DNA of 64,000 nt from Mycobacterium sherrisii. Its GTDB lineage: Bacteria > Actinomycetota > Actinomycetes > Mycobacteriales > Mycobacteriaceae. Within the stretch, counting starts at the first letter, position 1, and each line of letters opens with the position of its first letter. Shown here piece by piece: positions 38,143 through 51,473 of this stretch. The stretch lies in NCBI RefSeq assembly GCF_002102355.1, contig NZ_LQPT01000023.1, positions 1 through 64,000 on the forward strand, written 5' to 3'. Under the pieces are notes generated by a model. It was not told the DNA's origin, searched no databases, and saw only the letters and a list, made by a program, of their open reading frames with translations. The translations under genes were made by a program, and so were the position numbers.

Positions 38143-38168
38143 GGTGAGAGAGTACTCACTCACCATGG
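38139..38168. promoter_or_regulatory. 30-bp operator palindrome over the tetR start
   Basis: Arms CCATGGTGAG (38139-38148) and CTCACCATGG (38159-38168) match perfectly, and the centre contains GAGTACTC. Only one mirrored position pair fails over 30 bases. It covers both possible tetR start codons and probably also the promoter. Confidence 0.7.
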
Positions 38169-38300
38169 GGTTGGCAAACCCGTCCCCGGCGGCGGCCGTA
38201 CCGACCGGCGGTAGCCGGAACGGCCGGCGGTGCGCAATGCTGGGGCGTGGGCGCACGGTCCGGCACCCGGCCCGCGCCGAGCGACGACGGAGGGATCGCA

Positions 38301-39209
38301 ATGAACATCGCAATGAACGAAGAGCAGCGCAACGCGATGGCGTCGGGACGGGGCTTCATCGCCGCTCTGGATCAAAGCGGCGGGAGCACACCGAAAGCGC
38401 TCAAGCTGTACGGGATTGGCGAGGACGCCTACGACGGCGACGAGCAGATGTTCGACTTGATCCATCAGATGCGCAGCCGGCTGATCGCCAGCCCGAGCTT
38501 CTCCGGCGACAAGGTGATCGCGACGATCCTGTTCGAGCAGACCATGGACCGCACCATCAACGGTGAGGACTCCGCCGCGTACCTGTGGAAGCAAAAGCAC
38601 ATCGTGCCGTTCGTGAAGGTGGACCAGGGGCTCAGCGAGGCCGACAACGTCATCGACGGCGTCCAGCTGATGAAGCCGATGACGAAGCTCGACTCGCTGC
38701 TCGAGCGCGCCGTCGGCAAGGGCATTTTCGGCACCAAGATGCGCTCGTTCATTCACGAACCCAACGAGAAGGGCATCGACGCCGTCGTCGAACAGCAATT
38801 CGAGTACGCCGACAAGATCGCCGCCCGCGGCCTGATGCCCATCATCGAACCCGAGGTCAGCATCCACAGTCCCGACAAGCCCAAAGCGGACGATCTGCTG
38901 GTCGCCGCGCTGCACACCCGGCTCGACACGCTGCCCGACGACAGGCAGGTCATGCTCAAGCTGACCCTGCCCGACGAGGACAATCTGTACGCGCCGCTGA
39001 TCGCTCATCCGCGGGTGCTGCGGGTGGTCGCGCTGTCCGGCGGCTACAGTCTGGCCGAGAGCTGCCAGGTGCTCAGCCGTAACCACGACCTGATCGCCAG
39101 CTTCTCGCGGGCCCTGACGGAGGGGCTGACCGCCCAGCAGAGCGACGCCGAATTCGACGCCAAACTCGCATCCAATATCGAGGACATCTACGTGGCGTCC
39201 ATCACTTAG
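38301..39209 (+). CDS. fda: fructose-bisphosphate aldolase, class I (Schiff-base type)
   Basis: The gene encodes 302 residues from ATG 38301, preceded by GGAGGG. The conserved stretches are GFIAALDQSGGSTPKAL, FEQTMDRTINGEDSAAYLW, GLMPIIEPEVSIHSPDK, QVMLKLTLPDED and VVALSGGYSLAES. These match the short bacterial class I aldolase found in Staphylococcus and actinobacteria. It splits fructose 1,6-bisphosphate into two triose phosphates without metal. Mycobacteria usually also have a class II enzyme. The formate dehydrogenase gene begins 23 bases after it but has its own predicted promoter. Confidence 0.9.
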   Translation: MNIAMNEEQRNAMASGRGFIAALDQSGGSTPKALKLYGIGEDAYDGDEQMFDLIHQMRSRLIASPSFSGDKVIATILFEQTMDRTINGEDSAAYLWKQKHIVPFVKVDQGLSEADNVIDGVQLMKPMTKLDSLLERAVGKGIFGTKMRSFIHEPNEKGIDAVVEQQFEYADKIAARGLMPIIEPEVSIHSPDKPKADDLLVAALHTRLDTLPDDRQVMLKLTLPDEDNLYAPLIAHPRVLRVVALSGGYSLAESCQVLSRNHDLIASFSRALTEGLTAQQSDAEFDAKLASNIEDIYVASIT

Positions 39210-39219
39210 GTTCGACCGT

Positions 39220-39225
39220 TAGGCT
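39220..39225 (+). promoter_or_regulatory. -10 box TAGGCT of leaderless fdnG
   Basis: TAGGCT ends seven bases before the ATG at 39233. No ribosome site lies between them. The same hexamer with similar spacing stands before selD. Confidence 0.6.
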
Positions 39226-39232
39226 GCTGGTC

Positions 39233-42200
39233 ATGCCTAGAAAGCTGCCCTCGCCGAAGATCGTTTTGGAATGGCCCGCGCTGCGTCAGTTCCGGTCGGG
39301 CGACGTGTTCGGTCGCGGCCCGGCGGTCACCTCCAAGCACACCCGCGCGCTGACGCCGCGCACCACGACGGCCGACCGGGTCGTGCAGAGCGTGTGCCCC
39401 TACTGCGCGGTGGGGTGCGGCCAGAAGGTGTTCGTCAAGGACGAAAAGGTCGTGCAGATCGAGGGCGACCCCGACTCGCCGATCTCGCGCGGCCGGCTCT
39501 GCCCCAAGGGGTCGGCCAGTGAGCAGCTGGTCAACTCGCCGGGGCGCCAGCTGGAGGTGCTCTACCGGGCGCCGCGGGCGACCGAATGGCAGCGCATGGA
39601 CCTCGACACCGCGATCGACATGGTCGCCGATCGCTTCCTCGAGTCCCGCCGCCACACCTGGCAGGACATCGACAAGAAGGGCAACCTGCTGCGGCGCACC
39701 ATGGGGATCGCCGCCCTCGGCGGAGCGACGCTGGACAACGAAGAGAACTACCTGATCAAGAAACTCTTCACCGCGGCCGGCGCGATTCAGATCGAGAACC
39801 AAGCTCGTATTTGACACAGCTCCACGGTTCCCGGTCTGGGAGCCTCGTTCGGGCGCGGTGGCGCCACCCAACCACTGCAAGACATGGCCAACGCCGATTG
39901 CATCATCATCCAGGGTTCCAACATGGCCGAGTGCCATCCGGTGGGATTCCAATGGGTTGAGGAAGCCAAGGCGCGCGGCGCGAAGCTGATTCATGTCGAC
40001 CCGCGCTTCACTCGCACCTCGGCGGTGTCGGACAAGCACATACCGATCCGGGCGGGCTCCGACGTGGTGCTGCTTGGGGCGCTGATCAACCATGTCCTGC
40101 GCAACGACCTGTGGTTCAAGGAGTACGTGGTCGCCTACACCAACGCGGCCACCCTGATCAACGAGGACTTCCGGGACGCCGAGGACCTCGGCGGCTTGTT
40201 CTCCGGCTTCGATCCCGCGACCGGGCAGTACGACCCGTCGACGTGGGCGTATGCCACCGCCGACGGTGACGGCGCCGAACACGGCATCGCCGGCCCGGAC
40301 GACCGGCACGAGCACGGCTCGTCGGCCTCGGCGCGCGCGGCGGGCGACCAGCACGGCATGGGCGGCCCCGCGCTGGCGCACGCCCGGGTGCTGCGCGACG
40401 AGACCCTGCAGCATCCGCGGACGGTGTTCCAGATCCTCAAGCGGCACTACGCCCGCTACACCCCGGAGATGGTCACCAGCCTGTGCGGCATCAGCCGCGA
40501 GGATTTCGACTACCTCGCCCGCAGCATCGTCGAGAACTCCGGCCGCGAGCGCACCACCTGCTTCGCCTATGCCGTCGGGTGGACTCAACACACCCTCGGC
40601 GCCCAATTCATCCGCACCGCAACGATCTTGCAGCTGCTCATGGGGAACGTCGGCCGCCCCGGCAGCGGCATCATGGCGTTGCGCGGCCACGCCAGCATCC
40701 AGGGTTCCACGGATATCCCGACGCTGTTCAACTTGCTGCCCGGGTATCTGCCGATGCCGTCGGCGGGCGCGCACAACACCCTCGCCGACTACCTGGACGG
40801 GGTGGGCTCCAAGGACCAGAAAGGCTTCTGGGCCAACGCCGACGCCTACCTGGTCAGCCTGCTCAAGGCGTGGTGGGGGGACGCGGCGACCGCGGACAAC
40901 GACTGGGCCTACGACTACCTGCCGCGGCTGTCCGGACCGCACGGTACCTACCAGACCGTGGTGGGGATGCTTGACGACGAGGTCGAGGGCTACTTCCTGT
41001 TGGGCCAGAACCCGGCCGTCGGATCGGCCCACGGCCGGATGCAGCGGCTGGGCATGGCGCACCTGAAATGGCTTGTGGTGCGCGACCTTAACCTCATCGA
41101 GTCGGCCACCTGGTGGAAGGACGGCCCCGAGATCGCGTCCGGCGAGTTGAAGACCGAGGACATCGAGACCGAAGTGTTCTTCTTTCCGGCGGCCACCCAC
41201 GTCGAGAAGGCCGGGTCGTTCACCCAGACGCAACGGCTGTTGCAATGGCGGCACAAGGCCGTCAATCCGCCCGGCCAATGCCAAAGCGAGCTCGAGTTCT
41301 TCTACGAGCTCGGCAGGAGGATCAAGGAGCGGTTGGCGGGTTCGACCGACGAACGCGACCGGCCGCTGCTGGACCTGACGTGGGACTACCCGACCGATGA
41401 GCACGGCGAGATCGACAGCGAGGCGGTGCTGGCCGAATACAACGGCCATCACCTCACCGGGCCGGACGCCGGCCGGCCGGTCTCCTCGTTCAACGAGTTG
41501 CGCGCGGACGGGACGACGGCGTGCGGTTGCTGGATCTACGCGGGGGTATACGCCGGCGGCGCCAACCAGTCGGCCCGCCGGGTGCCGCACGGCGGCACCA
41601 GCCCGAACCAGGCGGAGTGGGGTTGGGCCTGGCCGGAGGACCGGCGAATCCTGTACAACCGCGCCTCCGCCGACCCCGACGGCCGCCCGTGGAGTGAGCG
41701 CAAGAAGTACGTCTGGTGGGATCCCGAGGCCGCCGGCGGCAGCGGCCGCTGGGTCGGCTACGACCAGCCCGACTTCGTCGTGGACCGCGCACCGGGCAGT
41801 CGCCCCGACCCCGACGTCGGCGGACCGGACGCGCTGGCCGGCGACGACGCGTTCGTGATGCAGGCCGACGGCAAGGCGTGGCTGTTCGCCCCGAAGGGCG
41901 TCGTCGACGGTCCGCTGCCCACACACTACGAGCCGCAGGAGTCGCCGGTCGCCAACGCGCTCTACCCGCAACAGCAAAGTCCCTCGCGAATCATGTTCCC
42001 GCGCAAGGACAATCTGAGTGCGCCGAGCGCGGGGGACCCCGGCGTCGACGTGTACCCGTACGTGTTCACCACCTACCGGCTCACCGAGCACCACACCGCG
42101 GGAGGGATGAGCCGATGGTTGCCCTACTTGTCCGAATTGCAGCCGGAGATGTTCTGTGAGGTCTCACCGGAGCTGGCCGACGAACGCGGTCTGCAGCCCT

Positions 42201-42619
42201 ACGGGTGGGCCACCATCGTCTCGCCGCGTGCGGCGATCGAGGCGCGAGTGTTGATCACCGAGCGGATGACCCCGCTGCGCATCGGGGGCCACACCGTGCA
42301 CCAGATCGGGCTGCCCTACCACTGGGGCGTGGGCAACGACGCGGTGGTCAGCGGGGACGCGGCGAACGACTTGCTGGGCATCACCCTCGACCCGAATGTG
42401 CAAATCCAGGAGTCCAAGGCGGGGTCCTGCGACATCCGGCCCGGCCGGCGGCCGCAGGGCGAGGCGCTGCTGCGGCTGGTGGCCGAATACCAGTCCCGCG
42501 CCGGCGCCACGGTCGAGACGGACAATGTACGAGTCACGCCGCAGGTTTGGGACGCCCTCGAATCCGCGGGTGGCCAGCACAGGAAGGACGCCGATGGGCC
42601 AGCTGACCGGACCGAGTGA
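39233..42619 (+). CDS. fdnG: formate dehydrogenase alpha subunit, selenoprotein with in-frame UGA
   Basis: The gene encodes 1128 residues if the TGA at 39812-39814 is read as selenocysteine (residue 194; Sec196 in E. coli FdnG). Both sides keep the same frame, and the context ENQARI-Sec-HSSTVPGLGASF is the family active site. CPYCAVGC (about 55-62) and CPKG bind a 4Fe-4S cluster; molybdopterin domains follow, ending with TVSPRAAIEARV-type C-terminal domain sequence. Formate is oxidised at a Mo- or W-bis-MGD site. No twin-arginine signal is visible, so the subunit is probably cytosolic. Residues about 336-379 form a low-complexity Asp/His/Gly-rich insertion. A SECIS hairpin follows the UGA. 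Confidence 0.95.
39812..39844 (+). promoter_or_regulatory. UGA selenocysteine codon and SECIS element
   Basis: The UGA (39812-39814) is followed after 11 bases by the stem GGTTCCC (39826-39832), loop GGTCT (39833-39837) and GGGAGCC (39838-39844). It has seven pairs including one G-U. The GGUCU apical loop matches the SelB-binding loop of the E. coli fdhF/fdnG SECIS. It is the signal that recodes the UGA. Confidence 0.9.
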
Positions 42620-43577
42620 CCCGGCCGTGGCTGCTGGTTGGTCAGATGCCAAGCCGCGCAAGGGTTTTTTCACCGACACCTCGATCTGTATCGGTTGCAA
42701 AGCCTGCGAAGTGGCGTGCAAGGAGTGGAACCGCAACCCGCGCGACGGCGAGCTGGAACTGCTGGGCTCGTCCTACGACAACACCGGCGCGCTCGGTGCG
42801 AGCACCTGGCGGCACGTGGCCTTCATCGAACAGGGACGAGACCGCATCAAGGAGGCGCGCGAATCCGGCCGTGCGCTCATCGGTTTGGGGATGCCGGCAA
42901 TGCCCGGTTCGGCCGGACAGGTCGACAGCGAGCCCGATCTCAGGCCGCCGGACACCCCGGAGTTTCGCTGGCTGATGTCCTCGGACGTGTGCAAGCACTG
43001 CACGCACGCCGGTTGCCTCGACGTGTGCCCCACCGGGGCACTGTTCCGCACCGAGTTCGGCACGGTCGTGGTGCAGCACGACGTCTGCAACGGCTGCGGC
43101 ACCTGCGTGGCGGGCTGCCCGTTCGGCGTGGTGGAGCGGCGCAGCGACGGCACCTACGCGACGCCCGTGGAACGCCCCGGCCGGCCCAAGGAGGAATTCG
43201 TCACCGGGGTCGCCCAAAAATGCACGCTGTGCTACGACCGGCTGGTCGAAGACCAGACGCCCGCTTGCGCGCAGACCTGCCCGACCACGTCGATCAAATT
43301 CGGCAATCACGACGAGTTGGTGGTCCAAGCGCGGCAGCGGGTCGCCCAACTGCACGCCGAGGGACGCACGGAGGCAAGGCTTTACGGCGCCAACGAGGAC
43401 GACGGCGTCGGTGGCACCGGGTCGGTGTTCTTGTTGCTCGACGAGCCCGAGATTTACGGCCTGCCCCCCGACCCCCGGGTGTGCACGGCCGACCTGCCAA
43501 CCATGTTCAGGCGGGCCGGCATCGCGGCGGCCGGCATGATCGGTGCGGCCGCGTTGGCCTTCTGGAGGAATCGGTGA
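42594..43577 (+). CDS. fdnH: formate dehydrogenase iron-sulfur (beta) subunit
   Basis: The gene encodes 327 residues. Four cysteine clusters of the ferredoxin type are visible: CIGCKACEVACKEW (about 32-45), CKHCTHAGCLDVCP, CNGCGTCVAGCPFG, and CTLCYDRLVE with CAQTCPTTS. They bind four 4Fe-4S clusters that carry electrons from the alpha subunit. A C-terminal hydrophobic stretch (AGIAAAGMIGAAALAFW) anchors it to the membrane. AGGAAGGA precedes the ATG, which overlaps the end of fdnG by 26 bases. Confidence 0.93.
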   Translation: MGQLTGPSDPAVAAGWSDAKPRKGFFTDTSICIGCKACEVACKEWNRNPRDGELELLGSSYDNTGALGASTWRHVAFIEQGRDRIKEARESGRALIGLGMPAMPGSAGQVDSEPDLRPPDTPEFRWLMSSDVCKHCTHAGCLDVCPTGALFRTEFGTVVVQHDVCNGCGTCVAGCPFGVVERRSDGTYATPVERPGRPKEEFVTGVAQKCTLCYDRLVEDQTPACAQTCPTTSIKFGNHDELVVQARQRVAQLHAEGRTEARLYGANEDDGVGGTGSVFLLLDEPEIYGLPPDPRVCTADLPTMFRRAGIAAAGMIGAAALAFWRNR

Positions 43578-44659
43578 GCACCTCCGAATTCGACAGCTTC
43601 CGGCCGCCGCAGCCCACGGGCGGCAAGCGCCGAAAAGGGAAGCGCGGCAACAGACGCGGCGTTAATGACGGCTCCCGCGAGATGCCGATGGTGCCCGACG
43701 CCGAGTTCACCTCCTACTACGGGCGTCCGGTGGTCAAGCCCGCGCCCTGGGGCCACGAGGTGGCGGCCTACCTGTTCCTGGGCGGCGTGGCCGGCGGATC
43801 CGGCCTGCTGGCAGCCGGTGCGCAGTTCACCGGCCGAAACACGTTGCGCCGCAACACCAGACTGTCCGCGCTGATCGCGGTGGCCCTCGGCGCGGTCGCC
43901 CTGGTGCTGGATCTGGGTCGGCCCGAGCGGTTCGTCAACATGCTGCGCACCATCAAGCTCACGTCGCCGATGAGCATCGGCTCGTGGATCCTCAGCCTGT
44001 TCAGCGGCGGCATCGGGGTGGCGGCCGTCGCGGAAATCGACAAGATGACCGGCGAGCGAATCCCATTGGGCCCGTTGCGTCCGGTGCTGCGTACCGTCGA
44101 GGCGCCGGCCGGGGTCGCGGCGGGTGCCTTCGCCGCCCCGCTGGCGGTCTACACCGCGGTGCTGTTGGGCGACACCGCGACTCCGACCTGGAATGCCATG
44201 CATAAGGACCTGCCGTTCGTATTCGTCAGCTCGGCGAGCCTGGCCGCCTCGGGGTTGGCGATGATCACCACCCCGGTCGCCGAGGCCGGGCCGGCGCGCA
44301 CGCTGGCGGTGCTCGGTGTCGCCGGTGACCTCGTCGCCACCAAACTGATGGAACGCCGGATGGACCCGGTCGCCGCGGAGCCGCTGCATCACGGCGAGCC
44401 CGGGCGGATGCTGCGCTGGAGCGAACGCCTCGCCGTCGCGGGGGGACTGGGCACACTGCTGGCCGGCCGGCACCGCGGCGTGGCGGCGGCGTCGGGTCTG
44501 GCGTTGCTGACCGCGTCGGCCCTGACCCGCTTCGGCGTGTTCGAGGCCGGCAAGGAATCGGCCCGGGACCCGCGCTACACGATCGAACCGCAGAAGCGGC
44601 GGCTGGCCGCTCGGCGCGCGGCCGGCATCACCGACGACTCGATCACCACCGCCCGCTGA
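43574..44659 (+). CDS. NrfD-type membrane subunit of formate dehydrogenase
   Basis: The gene encodes 361 residues. GTG overlaps the beta subunit stop (GTGA) with GGAGGAA upstream. A basic, proline-rich N-terminus of about 55 residues precedes eight or so hydrophobic segments of the NrfD/PsrC family (PWGHEVAAYLFLGGVAGGSG, LVLDLGRPERFVNMLRTIK). This family passes electrons to menaquinone and replaces the cytochrome b FdnI of E. coli. It ends two bases before the end of the convergent selD. Confidence 0.9.
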   Translation: MSTSEFDSFRPPQPTGGKRRKGKRGNRRGVNDGSREMPMVPDAEFTSYYGRPVVKPAPWGHEVAAYLFLGGVAGGSGLLAAGAQFTGRNTLRRNTRLSALIAVALGAVALVLDLGRPERFVNMLRTIKLTSPMSIGSWILSLFSGGIGVAAVAEIDKMTGERIPLGPLRPVLRTVEAPAGVAAGAFAAPLAVYTAVLLGDTATPTWNAMHKDLPFVFVSSASLAASGLAMITTPVAEAGPARTLAVLGVAGDLVATKLMERRMDPVAAEPLHHGEPGRMLRWSERLAVAGGLGTLLAGRHRGVAAASGLALLTASALTRFGVFEAGKESARDPRYTIEPQKRRLAARRAAGITDDSITTAR

Positions 44660-44661
44660 GC

Positions 44662-45651
44662 TCAGCGGATCTCGACGCCCGCCGCCGCGGTGGTGTGCCC
44701 GATCACCGGGTGACCGGGAAGCTCACCCACCACCAGCAAGCCGCCCGAGGTCTGCGCGTCGGCGAGCAGCAGCAGATCGTTTTCGGTCACCCCCGAACCG
44801 GGCCGCAGGTGCGGGCGGACCCAATCGAGATTTCGCTTCGTCCCGCCGGAGACGAACCCGTCGCGCAGCGCCACCCGAGCCGCGTCGATCACCGGCACCG
44901 CCGCGCGGTCGATCACGGCGCCCACCTTCGACGCCCGGCACATCTTGTACAGGTGGCCGAGCAACCCGAAGCCGGTGACATCCGTCGCGGCACGCACACC
45001 GTGGGCCAGCGCGGCCTCGGCGGCCGCCCGGTTGAGCCGAGTCATCGTGGCGATCGCCTCGGCGAACACCTCACCGGTCTGCTTGTGGCGATTGTTGAGC
45101 AGCCCGACCCCGAGGGGTTTGGTCAACGTCAGCGGCAGGCCCGGCTCGGCGGCGTCGTTGCGCAGCAAGCGAGTCGGGTCCGCCACGCCGGTCACCGCCA
45201 TGCCGTACTTCGGCTCCGGGTCGTCGATGGAGTGGCCGCCGATCACCGGGCAGTTCGCCTCCGCCGCCACCGCCAGGCCGCCGCGCAGCACCTCGGTCAT
45301 CAATTCCAGCGGCAACACGTCCCGCGGCCAGCCGACCAGGTTGATCGCGACCACCGGGCGGCCGCCCATGGCGTACACATCCGAAAGGGCGTTGGCCGCC
45401 GCGATCCGTCCCCAGTCGTAGGCGTCGTCGACAACGGGGGTGAAGAAGTCCGCGGTGGACAGCACCGCCAGATCGCCGACCAACACCGCGGCGGCGTCGT
45501 CGCCGTCGTCCAGCCCGACCAGCACGTGCTCCCCGGCTTGGCCGGTCAGGCCGCGAACGGCCTCCTCCAGATCGCCCGGCGGGATCTTGCAGGCACAGCC
45601 ACCGCCGTGCGCGTAGCCGGTCAACCGGGTCGGGGTATCGATCTGAGCCAT
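44662..45651 (-). CDS. selD: selenophosphate synthetase
   Basis: The gene encodes 329 residues. The catalytic motif GGGCACK near the N-terminus gives Cys19 and Lys22, equivalent to Cys17 and Lys20 of the E. coli enzyme; it is a Cys, not a Sec, form. The ATP and metal-binding GLDDGDDAAA and TADFFTPVVDDAYDWGRIAA follow. It makes selenophosphate from selenide and ATP for tRNA-Sec. A leaderless promoter (TAGGCT) stands six bases upstream. It is divergent from selC-selA-selB. Confidence 0.95.
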   Translation of the reverse strand: MAQIDTPTRLTGYAHGGGCACKIPPGDLEEAVRGLTGQAGEHVLVGLDDGDDAAAVLVGDLAVLSTADFFTPVVDDAYDWGRIAAANALSDVYAMGGRPVVAINLVGWPRDVLPLELMTEVLRGGLAVAAEANCPVIGGHSIDDPEPKYGMAVTGVADPTRLLRNDAAEPGLPLTLTKPLGVGLLNNRHKQTGEVFAEAIATMTRLNRAAAEAALAHGVRAATDVTGFGLLGHLYKMCRASKVGAVIDRAAVPVIDAARVALRDGFVSGGTKRNLDWVRPHLRPGSGVTENDLLLLADAQTSGGLLVVGELPGHPVIGHTTAAAGVEIR

Positions 45652-45657
45652 GGCTCG

Positions 45658-45663
45658 AGCCTA
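45658..45663 (-). promoter_or_regulatory. -10 box TAGGCT of leaderless selD
   Basis: On the minus strand TAGGCT ends six bases before the selD ATG, the same hexamer as before fdnG. A possible plus-strand -10 for selC, TATTAC, lies near 45730; that call is weak. Confidence 0.55.
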
Positions 45664-45758
45664 CGAGTGCGGGATCACCCCACCCCGCGGATGTGGCGGA
45701 TCTGACAAGACCGCTACGGGACGGCTCGGTATTACTACTGACCAGCTACGTTGTCCAT

Positions 45759-45854
45759 GGAGGCGTTTGGGTTCCTGGTGGTCCCCCCGGTCTTCAAAAC
45801 CGGTGAGGTCGAGTATCTCGGTCTGGCGGGTTCGATTCCCGTCCGCCTCCGCCA
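45759..45854 (+). tRNA. selC: tRNA-Sec (anticodon TCA)
   Basis: The RNA is 96 bases with an encoded CCA (45852-45854) and discriminator G45851. The acceptor GGAGGCG pairs with CGCCTCC. The anticodon stem CCGGT/ACCGG (45787-45791, 45799-45803) holds the loop CTTCAAA with anticodon TCA at 45794-45796. A long variable arm (45807-45823, loop TAT) and a T loop TTCGATT complete the shape. The long variable arm and UCA anticodon identify selenocysteine tRNA. It reads the UGA in fdnG and lies just upstream of selA. Confidence 0.97.
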
Positions 45855-45882
45855 CACGCAGACCGAGGAGGTCGGGAGGTAA

Positions 45883-47223
45883 GTGACACAGGTCGACCCG
45901 CGCCGTCTGATCCCGCGCACCGATCGATTGCTGGCGCTCCCGCCGGTGCGGGAGGCGCGAGTCCGGCTGGGCGAGGACGCCGTCCGGGCCGTGGTGCGCG
46001 AAATTCAGGACCGGGCTCGCGGTGGGGCCCTGCCACCGGACCAGGTGCCTGACGCGGTGGTGGCGGCGCTGGCGGCCCGGCGCAGCACGAGGTTGCGGCC
46101 CGTGCTCAACGCCACCGGCGTCGTCGTGCACACCAATTTGGGGCGGGCGCCGTTGGCCGCCGCCGCGGTCGAGGCGCTGGTTTCGGCGAGTGGCTACGTC
46201 GACGTCGAACTGGACCTGGCCAGCGGCACCCGGTCGAAGCGGGGGGTCGCCCTGCGTGAGGCGCTGCTGCAGGCCTGCCCGGCGGCCGAGGATACGCTGG
46301 TGGTCAACAACGGCGCCGCGGCGCTGGTGCTGGCGACCACCGCGCTGGCCGGTGCTGGCCAGGCCGAGTTCGACGTCCGCGAGGTCGTCGTGAGTCGCGG
46401 CGAACTGATCGAGATCGGCGCCGGGTTTCGGCTGCCCGACCTGATCGCATCCACCGGCGCCCGGCTGCGCGAAGTCGGCACCACCAACCGCACCCACCTG
46501 AAGGACTATGCCGAGGCGATCGGCCCGCAGACCGGATGCGTGCTCAAGGTGCATCAAAGCAACTTCCGGGTGGAAGGATTCACCTGCGCCGTTTCGGTGT
46601 CCGAGCTGCGGGCGCTGACCGCCGCGAAACAGCTGCCGCTGGTTGTCGACCTGGGCAGCGGGCTGCTCGCACCCGAGCCGCTGCTGCCCGGCGAGCCGGA
46701 CGCCGCCACCGCGCTGGCCGACGGCGCCGACATCGTCACCGCCAGCGGGGACAAGCTGCTGGGCGGGCCGCAGGCGGGCATCGTGCTGGGCCGCGCCGAG
46801 GTGCTGCAGCGGCTGGCCCGGCATCCGCTGGCGCGGGCCGTCCGCGCCGACAAACTCACCCTGGCCGCGCTGGAGGCCACGGTCCGGGCCGGCGCGTCGC
46901 CGGTCACGCGGGCGCTGCACGCCGATCCCGGACAGCTTCGCGCCCGGGCGCAGCGACTGGCCGCGGCGGTCGGGGCCTCCGTCGTCGCACATGACGGACG
47001 GGTCGGGGGCGGCGGCGCTCCCGGCGTCCCGCTGCCCGGCTGGGCGGTCCGCCTCCCCGCGGCCGCGGCGGCCGCTCTGCGCGCCGGCGAGCCCGCGGTG
47101 CTGCCGCGCGTGCACGACGGCGCATGCCTGGTCGATCTGCGCTGCATCCCCGAGTCCGACGACGACCGCCTGCTGGCCGCGGTGTCCGCCGCGCTGGCCG
47201 GGATAGCCGAGGCGGACCGCTGA
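45883..47223 (+). CDS. selA: L-seryl-tRNA(Sec) selenium transferase
   Basis: The gene encodes 446 residues from GTG 45883, preceded by GGGAGG. It begins 28 bases after selC, so both are probably on one transcript. The PLP-binding lysine is Lys291 in ASGDKLLGGPQAG (Lys295 in E. coli). Other conserved parts are NATGVVVHTNLGRAPL and EVGTTNRTHLKDY. It converts Ser-tRNA(Sec) to Sec-tRNA(Sec) with selenophosphate. No serine kinase is needed in bacteria. Confidence 0.95.
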   Translation: MTQVDPRRLIPRTDRLLALPPVREARVRLGEDAVRAVVREIQDRARGGALPPDQVPDAVVAALAARRSTRLRPVLNATGVVVHTNLGRAPLAAAAVEALVSASGYVDVELDLASGTRSKRGVALREALLQACPAAEDTLVVNNGAAALVLATTALAGAGQAEFDVREVVVSRGELIEIGAGFRLPDLIASTGARLREVGTTNRTHLKDYAEAIGPQTGCVLKVHQSNFRVEGFTCAVSVSELRALTAAKQLPLVVDLGSGLLAPEPLLPGEPDAATALADGADIVTASGDKLLGGPQAGIVLGRAEVLQRLARHPLARAVRADKLTLAALEATVRAGASPVTRALHADPGQLRARAQRLAAAVGASVVAHDGRVGGGGAPGVPLPGWAVRLPAAAAAALRAGEPAVLPRVHDGACLVDLRCIPESDDDRLLAAVSAALAGIAEADR

Positions 47224-47261
47224 GCACGACGGCTTCTCCTCTCCCGCCCGTCTCCCGTGTC

Positions 47262-49043
47262 GTGGCCACCGCCGGGCACGTCGATCACGGCAAGAGCACC
47301 CTGCTGCGCGCGCTGACCGGCATGGAGCCGGATCGGTGGGAAGAGGAGCAGCGCCGCGGCCTGACCATCGACCTGGGCTTCGCGTGGACCACCTTGCCGT
47401 CCGGCCGACAGGTGGCCTTTGTCGATGTGCCAGGCCACCAACGCTTCCTGGCCAACACCCTGGCCGGCCTCGGGGCGACACCGGTGGTCTGCTTCGTCGT
47501 CGCCGCGGACGAGGGTTGGCAGGCACAGTCCAGCGACCACCGCGACGCGCTCGCCGCCCTGGGCATCCAGCACGGCCTGATCGCGGTCACCCGCGCGGAC
47601 CGGGCCCCCGACCGCGCCGCCCCGGTGCTGGCCCAGGCCCGCGACGAGCTGGCCGGCACCGGACTGCGCGACGCGCCCGGCGTCGTGGTGTCGGCCGTCA
47701 CCGGGACCGGGCTGACCGAATTGCGTGAGGCCCTCGACGGGGTGCTCGCGCGGCTGCCCGCGCCGGAGGCCACCGCGCGGGTGCGGTTGTGGGTGGACCG
47801 ATCCTTCACCATCACCGGCGCGGGCACCGTCGTGACCGGAACGCTCACGGCCGGCACCGTCGCCCGCGGCGACCGGCTCGATCTGCTCGGCGCCGAGCAG
47901 GGCCAGTCGGTGGTGATTCGGGGCCTGCAATGCCTCGGCGAGCCTCGTCCCGCGCTGGGCCCGGTGGCGCGGGTCGCGCTGAACCTGCGGGGCGTACCGC
48001 GCGAGGTCGTCCAGCGGGGGCACGCGCTGGTCACCCCGGACGCCTGGCCGAGCACCGGCACGCTCGACGTCCGCCGCACCACCGGCGGCCCGCTTACCGA
48101 GGCGCCGGCGCAGCTCGTCATGCACGTCGGGACCGCGGCCGTGCCCGCACGGCTGCGGCCGTTCGACGCGGACCACGGCCGGCTCACGTTCGGCCGGCAA
48201 TTGCCGCTGGTGCTTGGCGACCGGTTGGTGCTGCGCGACCCGGGCGGCCATCGGATCCTCGGCGGTGCCCAAGTGCTCGACGCCGACCCCCCGGCGTTGC
48301 GCCGACGCGGTGACGGCACCCGCCGGGCGGTGGCCCTGAGCGGGATGGACGCCGCCGGCGACCTCGCGGCCGAAGTGGCCCGCCGCGGTGCGGTGCGGGC
48401 GAGCCATCTGCGCCGGTTGGGGTTGCTGGCGTCGCGGGGCACGACGCCCGCGGGGGTACGGATTCTGGACGGCTGGTGGGTGCACGGCGCGACGTACGAA
48501 GCCTGGCAGCAGCGCTTGCGCGGCGCAGTCGAGGAGCTGCACGCTCGAGACCCGTTGGCGGAAGGGGTTTCTCGCGGCGCGGCCCGCGATCTGCTGGCCC
48601 TGCCGGACGCGTCGCTGCTCGATGCCGTCATCCGCGACGCCGGGCTCGAACAGCAAGGCGGCCACATCCGGGCGGCCGGTGCGCCCGGCGATCTCGGCGC
48701 CGCCGAAGCAGCGGTGCGGAAGTTGGAGCAGCGGCTGGGTGTCAATCCCTTCCACGCACCGGAGGCCGACGACCTGGCGGCCTGGCGGCTGTCCGCCCGC
48801 GAATTGGCGGCGGCCGAGCGGGCGGGACGGGTGCTGCGCCTGCGCGACGGAGTGGTATTGCTGCCCACCGCGCCCGCGCTGGCGATGCGGGAGCTGGCCC
48901 GCCTCGAGCAACCGTTCACCACCAGCCAGGCCCGGCAGGCGCTGGGCACCACTCGGCGGGTGGCGATTCCGCTGCTGGAACACCTCGACGCGCGGGGCTG
49001 GACCCGGCGGTTGGACGCCGGCCACCGCGAGGTGGTGCGATGA
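47262..49043 (+). CDS. selB: selenocysteine-specific elongation factor
   Basis: The product is about 593 residues from GTG 47262 (MATAGHVDHGKST); E. coli SelB begins at nearly the same point. A CTG at 47220 that overlaps the selA stop and has GAGGCGG upstream would add 14 residues. The GTPase motifs are GHVDHGKST, DVPGHQRF and a divergent TRADR in place of NKxD. EF-Tu-like domains follow, then the C-terminal winged helices (after about residue 370) that bind the SECIS loop. It delivers Sec-tRNA to the ribosome at the fdnG UGA. Confidence 0.93.
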   Translation: MATAGHVDHGKSTLLRALTGMEPDRWEEEQRRGLTIDLGFAWTTLPSGRQVAFVDVPGHQRFLANTLAGLGATPVVCFVVAADEGWQAQSSDHRDALAALGIQHGLIAVTRADRAPDRAAPVLAQARDELAGTGLRDAPGVVVSAVTGTGLTELREALDGVLARLPAPEATARVRLWVDRSFTITGAGTVVTGTLTAGTVARGDRLDLLGAEQGQSVVIRGLQCLGEPRPALGPVARVALNLRGVPREVVQRGHALVTPDAWPSTGTLDVRRTTGGPLTEAPAQLVMHVGTAAVPARLRPFDADHGRLTFGRQLPLVLGDRLVLRDPGGHRILGGAQVLDADPPALRRRGDGTRRAVALSGMDAAGDLAAEVARRGAVRASHLRRLGLLASRGTTPAGVRILDGWWVHGATYEAWQQRLRGAVEELHARDPLAEGVSRGAARDLLALPDASLLDAVIRDAGLEQQGGHIRAAGAPGDLGAAEAAVRKLEQRLGVNPFHAPEADDLAAWRLSARELAAAERAGRVLRLRDGVVLLPTAPALAMRELARLEQPFTTSQARQALGTTRRVAIPLLEHLDARGWTRRLDAGHREVVR

Positions 49044-49089
49044 GTTTGAGTTTGCTTGTCGCCCTGCGGATTAGCAGCGAGGCCGCCGG

Positions 49090-50037
49090 ATGATCGTCAT
49101 CGTCGGGGCGGGGATATGCGGGCTGTCCACCGCCTACGAACTGTCCCGGCGCGGGGAAAACGTCGTCGTCTTCGAGCGGGGCGAGCCCTTCGCCGAGCAG
49201 TCCGCGGGACTGGCGCGCATCTTTCGGATCGCCCACCGCCGTGCCGCGCTGTGCAGGCTCGCGCTGCGGGCGCGCGACGGTTGGCGGCGCTGGGAAAGCG
49301 AGCTGGACACCGGGCGGCTACTTGGCTCCGAAGGTTTCATCGCGGCCGCCCCGCCCGCGGCGACGGTGACCGCGATGACGGAGGCGGGCGCCGAATTCTC
49401 CTGGCTCGACGGCCGTGGCATCCAGGCCCGCATCCCGTTCGTGGCGCCCGCCTGGCAGACCGGGATTTTCGATCCGCTGGGTGGCAGCCTGCGCATCCGC
49501 CGCGCCCTGACGGCGCTGGCCGCCCGGGTCGAGATCCGGCGCGGCCGCGTCGTCTCGCTCGGCGATGACGGCTCGGTGCGCCTGGCCGATGGCACGGTCA
49601 CCCGCGGCGATGGGGTTGTGGTCTGCGCGGGCGCCCACACCACGGAACTGCTCGGGCCGCTCGACGTCGAGTTCGCACCGCACACGCGATTCACCTACCA
49701 GGGCGGCGACGCTGTGGGCGCGGCCTGCCTGTCGGCGCCCGAGGGATACGGGCTGCCGTTGGGCAGCACCGGCCGTTGGGCGTTCGGACAAGAGTCGCCG
49801 GACCCGGCCGGGGTGCGCGCGCTGTTCCCGTCGCTGTCCCCGGTGGGGCAGGTGGACTGCGTCACGGTCCGCGCCCCGTGGCTCGACGCGGGAGGGGACG
49901 GATGGCTGACGGTTCGCCGCGGCCGAGTGGTCGGCTTCGTCGGTAGCAACCTGATGAAGTTCGGGCCAGTGCTGGGCGAACTGCTCGCGCAAGCTGCTCT
50001 GGGCGACGGGCTGCCCAGCGAGTTGACGCTGGAATGA
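49090..50037 (+). CDS. FAD-dependent oxidoreductase, DAO family
   Basis: The gene encodes 315 residues. The FAD motif VIVGAGICGLSTAYEL is at the N-terminus (about 3-18). The C-terminus ends VGFVGSNLMKFGPVLGELLA, typical of D-amino-acid-oxidase/glycine-oxidase-like flavoproteins. The likely reaction is amine or imino acid oxidation, with unknown substrate. Its stop overlaps the ATG of the sensor kinase gene (ATGA). It starts 46 bases after selB in the same direction and may be read through from the sel operon. Confidence 0.85.
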   Translation: MIVIVGAGICGLSTAYELSRRGENVVVFERGEPFAEQSAGLARIFRIAHRRAALCRLALRARDGWRRWESELDTGRLLGSEGFIAAAPPAATVTAMTEAGAEFSWLDGRGIQARIPFVAPAWQTGIFDPLGGSLRIRRALTALAARVEIRRGRVVSLGDDGSVRLADGTVTRGDGVVVCAGAHTTELLGPLDVEFAPHTRFTYQGGDAVGAACLSAPEGYGLPLGSTGRWAFGQESPDPAGVRALFPSLSPVGQVDCVTVRAPWLDAGGDGWLTVRRGRVVGFVGSNLMKFGPVLGELLAQAALGDGLPSELTLE

Positions 50038-51473
50038 AACGAGAGTCGCTGGGACGCAACAACGATAATGGCCGTGATGGCCGTCGATCAGCAAGGGAGC
50101 CCAACATCCGCGCGTTGAAGAAGATCCGGCTGCCGATGCGTGTGCTGTCGTTGCGCACGATTGTCATCGTCGCGCAGTTGGGTGTGATCGCCCTGGTCGT
50201 CACGCTGGGCGTCTGGGTCTGGGTCGGGGTCACCAATGACCAATACAGCCAGCTCGATCGCCGGCTGGACTCCGTCAGCAGCCTCGGCGATATCGACTCG
50301 CTGCTCAACAGTCCGCAGCCATCCAGCCCCGATCGGCCCACGCCGGACGGCAACCTGGTGCGCACGGCGCGTGTCGGGCCCATGACGGTGTCGTTGCCCA
50401 GCAACATCGTCCTGCCCAAACTCGCCAACGGGTACGCCAACACCACCATCAACGGCGTGCAGTACCGCGTCCGGACGTTCGAGGCCGGGCCGGCCTCGAT
50501 CGCGCTGGCCGCACCCCTGGCCGAAGCCCAGCATCGCATCAACGAATTGCATTTACGTGTCCTGTTGATCTGTGCCGGCGTCATCGGTGGGACGTTCTTG
50601 GTCGGCTGGGTCATCTCGTTGATCATGGTGAATCCTTTTGTGCTGCTCGCCCGGCAAGCCCGCGCGATCAACGCCCAATCGAGTCCGGACGAGGTCCAGG
50701 TGCGTGGCGTGCGGGAGGCCGTCGAGATCGCCGAGGCGGTCGAACAGATGCTGGCCCGCATCGGCAACGAGCAACAGCGCACCCGGGCGGCGCTGGAGTC
50801 GGCGCGCGACTTCGCCGCCGTCGCCTCGCACGAATTGCGCACCCCCCTGACGGCGATGCGCACCAACTTGGAGGTGCTTTCCACGCTCGAGCTGGGAGCC
50901 GAGCAGCGCCAGGAGGTCATCGGCGACGTCATTCGTACCCAGAGCCGTATCGAGGCCACGTTGACGGCACTGGAACGCCTGGCGCAGGGCGAGCTGACGA
51001 CCGTCGACGACTTCGTCCCGTTCGACATCACCGAGCTGTTGGATCGCGCCGCGCACGACGCCCTGCGCATCTACCCCGACGTGGAGGTGTCGCTGGTGCC
51101 GTCGCCCACCGTGTTGATGGTGGGCCTGCCCACGGGTCTGCGGCTGGTGATCGACAACGCGATTGCCAACGCCGTCAAGCACGGGGGTGCGTCCAAAATC
51201 CAACTCGCCGTGAGCAGCTCCAGCCGGGGCGTGGAAATCGCGATCGACGACGACGGCACCGGCGTTCCGGAGGACGAACGCACCGCGGTGTTCGCGCGGT
51301 TCTCTCGAGGCTCCACGGCGTCGCGTTCGGGTTCAGGGTTGGGGTTGGCGCTGGTAGCCCAACAAGCCGAATTGCACGGCGGGACGGCATCTTTGCATGC
51401 CAGCCCGCTGGGCGGGACGCGGCTGCTGTTGCAGCTGGCAGGTGACGGTCGTGGTCCCGCCGACTGGGCATGA
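50034..51473 (+). CDS. PrrB-like sensor histidine kinase without adjacent response regulator
   Basis: The gene encodes 479 residues. Two membrane helices (about 44-65 and 176-198) flank an extracytoplasmic domain. HAMP and kinase domains follow, with phospho-acceptor His266 in ASHELRTPLTAMR, an N-box NAIANAVKHGG and GSGLGLALV. The kinase half is close to M. tuberculosis PrrB as I recall it, but prrA is absent. Instead it overlaps a flavoprotein gene upstream and a methyltransferase gene follows. It is an orphan paralogue that may signal to PrrA or another regulator elsewhere. The N-terminal 35 residues are extra compared with PrrB. Confidence 0.88.
   Translation: MKRESLGRNNDNGRDGRRSAREPNIRALKKIRLPMRVLSLRTIVIVAQLGVIALVVTLGVWVWVGVTNDQYSQLDRRLDSVSSLGDIDSLLNSPQPSSPDRPTPDGNLVRTARVGPMTVSLPSNIVLPKLANGYANTTINGVQYRVRTFEAGPASIALAAPLAEAQHRINELHLRVLLICAGVIGGTFLVGWVISLIMVNPFVLLARQARAINAQSSPDEVQVRGVREAVEIAEAVEQMLARIGNEQQRTRAALESARDFAAVASHELRTPLTAMRTNLEVLSTLELGAEQRQEVIGDVIRTQSRIEATLTALERLAQGELTTVDDFVPFDITELLDRAAHDALRIYPDVEVSLVPSPTVLMVGLPTGLRLVIDNAIANAVKHGGASKIQLAVSSSSRGVEIAIDDDGTGVPEDERTAVFARFSRGSTASRSGSGLGLALVAQQAELHGGTASLHASPLGGTRLLLQLAGDGRGPADWA

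Follow-up and report, generated by a model that had tools for sequence, protein, structure and literature searches.

Selenocysteine cassettes and their formate dehydrogenase clients probably exchange partners across mycobacteria: a proposed self-sufficient island in Mycobacterium sherrisii

Can a mycobacterium read an in-frame UGA as selenocysteine (Sec), are the genes that this would take assembled at one locus, and do they travel together with the enzyme that they serve? These questions are raised by a stretch of 64,000 nucleotides from Mycobacterium sherrisii (contig NZ_LQPT01000023.1, positions 1 to 64,000; hereafter the window), in which an earlier note had pointed to a complete Sec locus next to a formate dehydrogenase gene. 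Every part that it named was located in the sequence: an intact Sec island lies within 39233-49043, in the order fdnG, fdnH and a gene for an NrfD-type membrane anchor (all on the plus strand), selD (minus strand), and tRNA-Sec, selA and selB (plus strand). Together with comparisons across the genus, this leads us to propose, with a probability of about 0.88, that the island is self-sufficient, that its client (the selenoprotein that it serves) is a formate dehydrogenase, and that pairings of Sec cassettes and clients have been exchanged among mycobacteria.

A single UGA interrupts the fdnG frame, at codon 194 (NQARI-U-HSS), and this codon aligned opposite an X in the solved chain 1h0h_A, which we take to be Sec. 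The same codon is TGA in 119 of the 126 client rows with a recognised site and encodes Cys in the other seven, which stem from five genomes without the trait; the TGA sits at the Sec position of FdnG-type enzymes, as the earlier note had it. Client rows numbered 135 in all, some genomes being represented twice, and the stem comparison omits the nine in which no site was recognised. Profile searches placed SelD, SelA and SelB each above its NCBIfam cut-off, and tRNA-Sec was recovered by two methods, Rfam RF01852 (45759-45850, 73.3 bits, gathering score 47) and ARAGORN (45759-45854). SelA, SelB, SelD and a tRNA-Sec(UCA) are thus all present, as is a UGA-containing gene with a putative selenocysteine insertion sequence (SECIS) directly downstream of that codon, which is what a Sec-decoding trait calls for. 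The convergence of selD and the client operon, also described before, is tight: the operon ends at 44659 and selD at 44662, 2 bp apart.

The candidate SECIS hairpin, GGUUCCC-GGUCU-GGGAGCC, begins 11 nt behind the UGA. Codons +5 to +8 (GTT CCC GGT CTG) are unvarying in 46/46 mycobacterial clients of the window's kind (type 1) and equally invariant in 21/21 type-2 clients, which are ~64% identical to the window's; synonymous codons vary elsewhere. The seven-codon stretch from +4 to +10 is the most constrained of the gene, its level being reached by 0 of 673 other such windows in type 1 and 0 of 736 in type 2. Standard pairs fill 447 of 448 stem cells over 64 distinct 48-mers, which represent 17 different hairpins in several actinobacterial genera, with a few stem changes on both sides, for example C-G to T-A, and the loop reads GGUCU in 87, AGUUU in 23 and AGUCU in 9 of 119 rows. 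These patterns support the reading of the UGA at fdnG codon 194 as Sec. No second client sharing this SECIS was found in the M. sherrisii genome, where the hairpin pattern, with up to two mismatches allowed, matches once only.

The distribution of the trait was followed in 396 genomes of the genus, that of M. sherrisii included, with SelB called at E <= 1e-40 and the alpha subunit encoded by fdnG at E <= 1e-150. SelB was detected in 165 and the alpha subunit in 178 of the 396 genomes; fdnG was present in 165/165 SelB genomes versus 13/231 others, a co-occurrence whose Fisher p must be read with caution, the sampled genomes being related. In the joint search for selB and fdnG suggested for this locus the two thus go together, and the selenoprotein reading withstands the refutation that the earlier note had set out for it. 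Among the 13 enzyme-positive genomes without a SelB call, six carry a SelB piece running to a contig end. In five, Cys replaces the UGA (TGC in four, TGT in one), three to four of the seven stem pairs are broken, SelB matches stay at the level of elongation factors, and no strong tRNA-Sec match was obtained. Cys and a broken stem in all five trait-less genomes thereby form a natural control that favours Sec at the UGA of the others. The Cys homologues (L208, L209, L218, L219 and L221-L223) make up one clade joining the type-2 clients, under a long-branch warning. The remaining two genomes, G097 and G118, combine a UGA and a strong tRNA-Sec match with no detectable SelB, the contig of G118 ending next to selC. 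A tRNA-Sec above the family cut-off was seen in 172 of the 396 genomes; a looser E-value gave 331, an unspecific count, as 13 of 14 control genomes were positive at that level and five above the cut-off. Client and SelB positions, listed for 128 of the 165 SelB genomes, fell on the same contig in 121 and on different contigs in seven, and 117 of the 121 listed same-contig pairs lie within 15 kb.

Comparison of the SelB proteins revealed two machineries. Among the matches listed, type A, the window's own (62-100% identity), occurs in 61 of the 165 genomes and type B (49-54% identity to the window's) in 88; these bands were read from the table of matches, and the remaining 16 genomes have their matches outside it. 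One SelB match was obtained in 163 genomes; in G216 a single gene is split over two contigs, and G165 gave two matches. In the loci examined, A and B differ throughout the cassette (SelA 56-63%, SelD 68-74%, tRNA-Sec 74% identity), and the tRNA-Sec tracks its cassette, with a mean identity to the window's of 97% in 10 type-A rows and 74% in 12 type-B rows. The window's gene order recurs in all 42 mycobacterial type-A loci holding client and SelB (some genomes twice) and in 38 of 39 type-A loci from other taxa. Type-B loci take two forms, each described from 20 chosen loci: in B1 the client, inverted and placed upstream of selD, shares 82-87% identity with the window's, and in B2 it lies downstream of selB with 63-66% identity. 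Locus L097 gave a partial client match. Machinery B accompanies client 1 in at least 29 genomes by our reading of the SelB and client tables, 20 of which were examined gene by gene. The type-1 client, about 85% identical to the window's, is thus apparently served by machinery A or B with the same hairpin.

The last winged-helix domain of SelB reads the hairpin. Indeed, the winged helices are assigned SECIS recognition in the introduction of PMC8124441. Between 10 type-A and 10 type-B rows, SelB identity averages 51% and falls to 20% in residues 401-450, and it amounts to 58-61% in the last 100 residues, where the SelB-wing_3 domain lies (549-592). With both the hairpin and the SelB C terminus conserved, the two sides of this contact appear to have been kept while the rest of SelB drifted, and either SelB may be able to read either client.

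Trees of machinery and client conflict, in favour of an exchange of partners. In the tree of SelA and SelB together, A and B are separated by a long, fully supported branch, and the clade that contains the B1 rows includes B2 rows too. In the client tree, type-1 clients served by B nest among those served by A, in at least two places; a constraint uniting the 23 B1 clients was rejected by the approximately unbiased (AU) test (p 4.8e-5, 53 chosen rows), with four changes of machinery type on that tree. Mapped on an rpoB tree (78 chosen genomes), the machinery types switch nine times, and neither forms a clade. The closest view of a possible replacement is offered by G275, the sister of G204 on the rpoB tree. 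G204 holds a B cassette within 9 kb of a type-2 client. Around the type-2 client of G275, genes that match either side of that region are found within about 25 kb, the 48 kb examined contain no Sec gene, and a type-A cassette lies 4.6 Mb from the client on the contig, a distance of about 1 Mb on a circular chromosome. On the simplest reading, G275 would have kept its client and had its decoding genes replaced; the client may instead have been gained separately.

Whether the island moves as a unit was approached from its flanks, an acyl-CoA dehydrogenase and a sensor kinase gene, which were searched for in 60 chosen genomes. By our reading they were adjacent within about 3 kb in 15 genomes and flanked the block in seven, the window's among them. 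Alignment by blastn to the 15 empty-site relatives ended the left flank of the window at 38164-38194 and resumed the right flank at 50089-50129, and between the flanks the relatives hold 82-212 bp (13 of 15) or about 2.1 kb of other DNA (two of 15). The empty site implies that a 12-kb segment was gained or lost there as a unit, so that aldolase, client, Sec genes and flavin adenine dinucleotide (FAD) oxidoreductase appear to come or go as one. In seven loci the genes that separate the client from the Sec genes are known as open reading frames (ORFs) only, and the same holds for one empty-site locus. In a plasmid collection, 138 records match SelB, two of them at 60-80% identity, and both of these share the window's gene order, with selC: pYA7-1a of Arthrobacter, which is typed conjugative and where a Tn3-family transposase adjoins the block, and a plasmid of 239 kb from Tsukamurella tyrosinosolvens. 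The portability as one block that the earlier note had envisaged is thus supported, by the empty site and by the two plasmid copies. Inheritance as a single unit is not, since client and machinery separate and recombine. In G073 (L351, L352) they lie 635 kb apart on one contig, and the block can thus be split.

Several observations weigh against the proposed island and its exchange. The folding energy of the hairpin is no better than that of shuffled sequences (z 0.35; 119/200 shuffles fold at least as well) and was dropped as SECIS proof; since such stability is ordinary for this kind of DNA, the SECIS case rests on comparison, and the hairpin predicted earlier is borne out by codon constraint and stem pairing, not by folding energy. 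In G097 (L344, 8320-14817), client, selD and selC are in place well inside a contig, yet the genome yielded no selB, and the stretch next to selC no selA, so that its Sec trait is apparently in decay. Together with the four of the 121 listed same-contig genomes in which client and SelB are more than 15 kb apart, this case indicates that linkage is not essential and that the trait can decay. Of the 60 genomes, 38 have the flank genes neither adjacent nor around the block, the supposed gain of 12 kb may just as well be a loss, the block edges share no word of 10 or more bases, and the Tsukamurella plasmid is typed non-mobilizable. Two of the 23 clients counted as B1 (G097 and G118) were typed by selD, not SelB, and the trees are quick, single- or two-gene reconstructions with long-branch warnings, on genomes chosen by the analyst. 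The neighbourhood of the G275 client, moreover, although shared with G204, is re-ordered and not collinear, which slightly lowers the odds of the plug-in reading set out below.

Three other explanations were weighed. The block might be ancestral and vertically inherited in mycobacteria, with absences as independent losses and the two machineries as ancient paralogues sorted by loss. Losses are real, as G097 and M. ulcerans (PMC3434033, in the passage cited) illustrate, and loss can also scatter a trait; we nevertheless regard this account as improbable, as no genome with both SelB types was seen among the matches listed for the 165 genomes (best three candidates scored each), client and machinery trees conflict, the same gene order sits on a plasmid typed as conjugative, and SelB of the window's type also occurs in Arthrobacter, Kocuria, Sinomonas and some Alphaproteobacteria. 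Still harder to sustain is a co-inheritance of client and machinery in which tree error or uneven rates would produce the apparent reassortment. Quick trees from few genes, with branches flagged as long by the program, would allow for it, but genomes whose clients are about 85% identical have SelBs of only about 50% identity, the machinery types also differ in tRNA-Sec and in gene orientation, and AU tests reject concordant groupings. A reading of the UGA as a genuine stop or an inactivating mutation, with the downstream frame a pseudogene or a separate protein, is scarcely credible: UGA stops by the standard code, an ATG lies 70 bases downstream of it in fdnG, and G097 and G118 keep it where no SelB was found, but 119 client rows share a UGA at the same codon, the hairpin is under synonymous constraint, and Cys stands exactly there in 5/5 trait-less genomes.

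Under the reassortment reading that we favour, SelD would supply selenophosphate, SelA would convert Ser-tRNA-Sec into Sec-tRNA-Sec, and SelB, its last winged helix bound to the hairpin that begins 11 nt after the UGA, would deliver the latter to the ribosome. From this set of parts we infer Sec insertion and, in turn, a membrane-bound molybdopterin formate dehydrogenase that would oxidise formate and pass electrons via FdnH and the NrfD-type anchor, probably to menaquinone. The island would have been gained, or lost by relatives, as a single segment of roughly 12 kb, the direction of transfer being conjectural. Across the genus, the Sec cassette (selD-selC-selA-selB) of type A or B would pair with either of two client operon types, and pairings would change, an exchange that a hairpin shared by the clients and a similar C-terminal reader in both SelB types may permit. 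Provided that the two SelBs are interchangeable, code expansion probably works here as a plug-in: two deeply diverged cassettes for the same job would replace each other and swap clients, with hairpin and SelB tip, both kept nearly constant, as the shared socket.

The enzyme itself was classified by profile and structure. The alpha subunit scored 1934 bits with NCBIfam NF041513 'formate_DH_Act' (cut-off 1400) and 892 bits with TIGR01553, above the cut-off of 814 for the alpha subunit of formate dehydrogenase N (FDH-N); its relatives in the PDB are 1h0h, 1kqf and 8cm4, of which 1kqf is presumably E. coli FdnGHI and 1h0h the D. gigas enzyme. The alpha and beta subunits encoded in the window are homologous to those of FDH-N (1kqf) and 1h0h. 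With TIGR01582, FdnH reached 157 bits, below the FDH-N beta cut-off of 334.7 yet the best among the listed models. FdnI of E. coli FDH-N is a cytochrome b; in contrast, a domain scan of the locus found no cytochrome b gamma subunit, only NrfD (PF03916), and the gamma subunit had no match among solved structures. The anchor gene is annotated nrfD in both plasmid copies. Unlike FDH-N, the window's FdnG has no recognisable twin-arginine translocation (Tat) signal, a motif and hydropathy scan having found neither a twin-Arg motif nor a hydrophobic core; the same scan saw RR near the start in 15 of 93 clients, one of which also has a hydrophobic stretch, upstream of the RR. The NrfD-family gamma subunit and the missing Tat signal make a formate dehydrogenase linked to quinone the likely reading; that it faces the cytoplasm is held with low confidence. 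The FdhD family is needed for activating such formate dehydrogenases, and the M. sherrisii genome has two FdhD-family matches and one Sec-type formate dehydrogenase.

The features of the locus are collected in Table 1. The listed selB ORF starts at 47124, inside selA, and the sequence places the real start further downstream; in-frame TGAs within some SelB matches were considered as recoding and set aside because the query had begun upstream of that start. A consensus scan of 44500-45950 for promoters and terminators found nothing.

Table 1. Features of the Sec island and its variable segment in the window
Feature	Position	Strand	Basis
fdnG, formate dehydrogenase alpha subunit, 1128 aa (amino acids), putative Sec at residue 194	39233..42619	+	Translation with TGA=U; NCBIfam; PDB relatives
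In-frame UGA, putative Sec codon	39812..39814	+	Translation; client rows of relatives
Candidate SECIS hairpin	39826..39844	+	Codon constraint and stem pairing across relatives
fdnH, iron-sulfur electron-transfer subunit	42594..43577	+	Fer4 domains; 1kqf_B, E 3.3e-43
NrfD/PsrC-type membrane anchor, gamma subunit	43574..44659	+	PF03916, 69.5 bits
selD, Cys-type selenophosphate synthetase	44662..45651	-	TIGR00476, 383 bits (cut-off 125); GGCACK motif
selC, tRNA-Sec (UCA), CCA encoded	45759..45854	+	Rfam; ARAGORN
selA, Ser-tRNA-Sec to Sec-tRNA-Sec synthase	45883..47223	+	TIGR00474, 419 bits (cut-off 268); SGDKLLG motif
selB, Sec elongation factor	47262..49043 (start uncertain, about 47220-47262)	+	TIGR00475, 268 bits (cut-off 242); SelB-wing_3 at C terminus
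Segment absent from relatives (empty site): aldolase, fdnGHI, selD, selC, selA, selB, FAD oxidoreductase	38170..50125		blastn, 15 relatives
Class I fructose-bisphosphate aldolase, left end of variable segment	38301..39209	+	NF003784, 466 bits
FAD-dependent oxidoreductase, right end of variable segment	49090..50037	+	PF01266

At the left edge of the variable segment, a 19-bp unit is repeated 2.4 times (38186-38231), and none of the 11 proteins scanned in the block and its near flanks is an integrase or transposase. Outside the genus, four alphaproteobacterial contigs (L090, L095, L103 and L110; Afipia, Xanthobacteraceae, Hyphomicrobiales) encode a SelB that shares 62-65% identity with the window's, tRNA-Sec lying 50-210 bp upstream of its gene, and L103 and L110 have more distant SelA and SelD about 5 kb downstream. 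Two Brevibacterium loci (L111, L112) carry tRNA-Sec, selA and selB, with no match to formate dehydrogenase or selD within the stretch examined.

The arrangement has precedents, given here as in the cited passages. In Corynebacterium aurimucosum (2010), fdnG, fdxH, selD, selA, selB and selC form a cluster whose order is called highly conserved (PMC2830990); it is the same single-cluster content with a UGA in fdnG, in another genus, and that account is given without a SECIS comparison or reassortment. M. marinum (2012) likewise links a Sec synthase gene, selA (MMAR_5190), to a Sec formate dehydrogenase (MMAR_5194/5195) lost in M. ulcerans, there as a table entry and a remark (PMC3434033). The compact order, which the earlier note took for the point of interest, was therefore already published. 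Furthermore, tRNA-Sec was predicted in 103 of 244 mycobacteria (PMC9569102), and M. avium paratuberculosis stood with a formate dehydrogenase in a 2005 prediction table (PMC1242214). In A. chiangmaiensis DSM 45062, formate removal was selenite-dependent and proteins were detected; its FDH1 cluster is likewise an actinobacterial membrane-bound Sec formate dehydrogenase with linked selA-selB, differing in that selD is not listed in the cluster and that three Sec enzymes occur in one strain (PMC7176365). In Proteobacteria, clusters of selA-selB-selC and fdhA were horizontally transferred (PMC1794560), clustering with fdhA being a condition for transfer (PMC1794560, in part PMC5029168). The common rule is that clustering with a client lets Sec decoding spread, but there the machinery travels with its client, whereas in these mycobacteria two machineries would exchange clients (PMC1794560 for the former). 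For such an exchange we found no account in an open-access library, outside which most subscription papers lie, and two deeply diverged Sec machineries of one genus pairing with two enzyme types is what we did not find in print.

The locus itself is ordinary for its kind. What the comparison across the genus adds is a set of natural swap experiments: the same selenoprotein under two SelB lineages, one genome apparently with replaced machinery, another in which selB was lost and the UGA kept, and Cys versions with a decayed hairpin. With these, SelB-SECIS matching and the spread of code expansion become directly testable.

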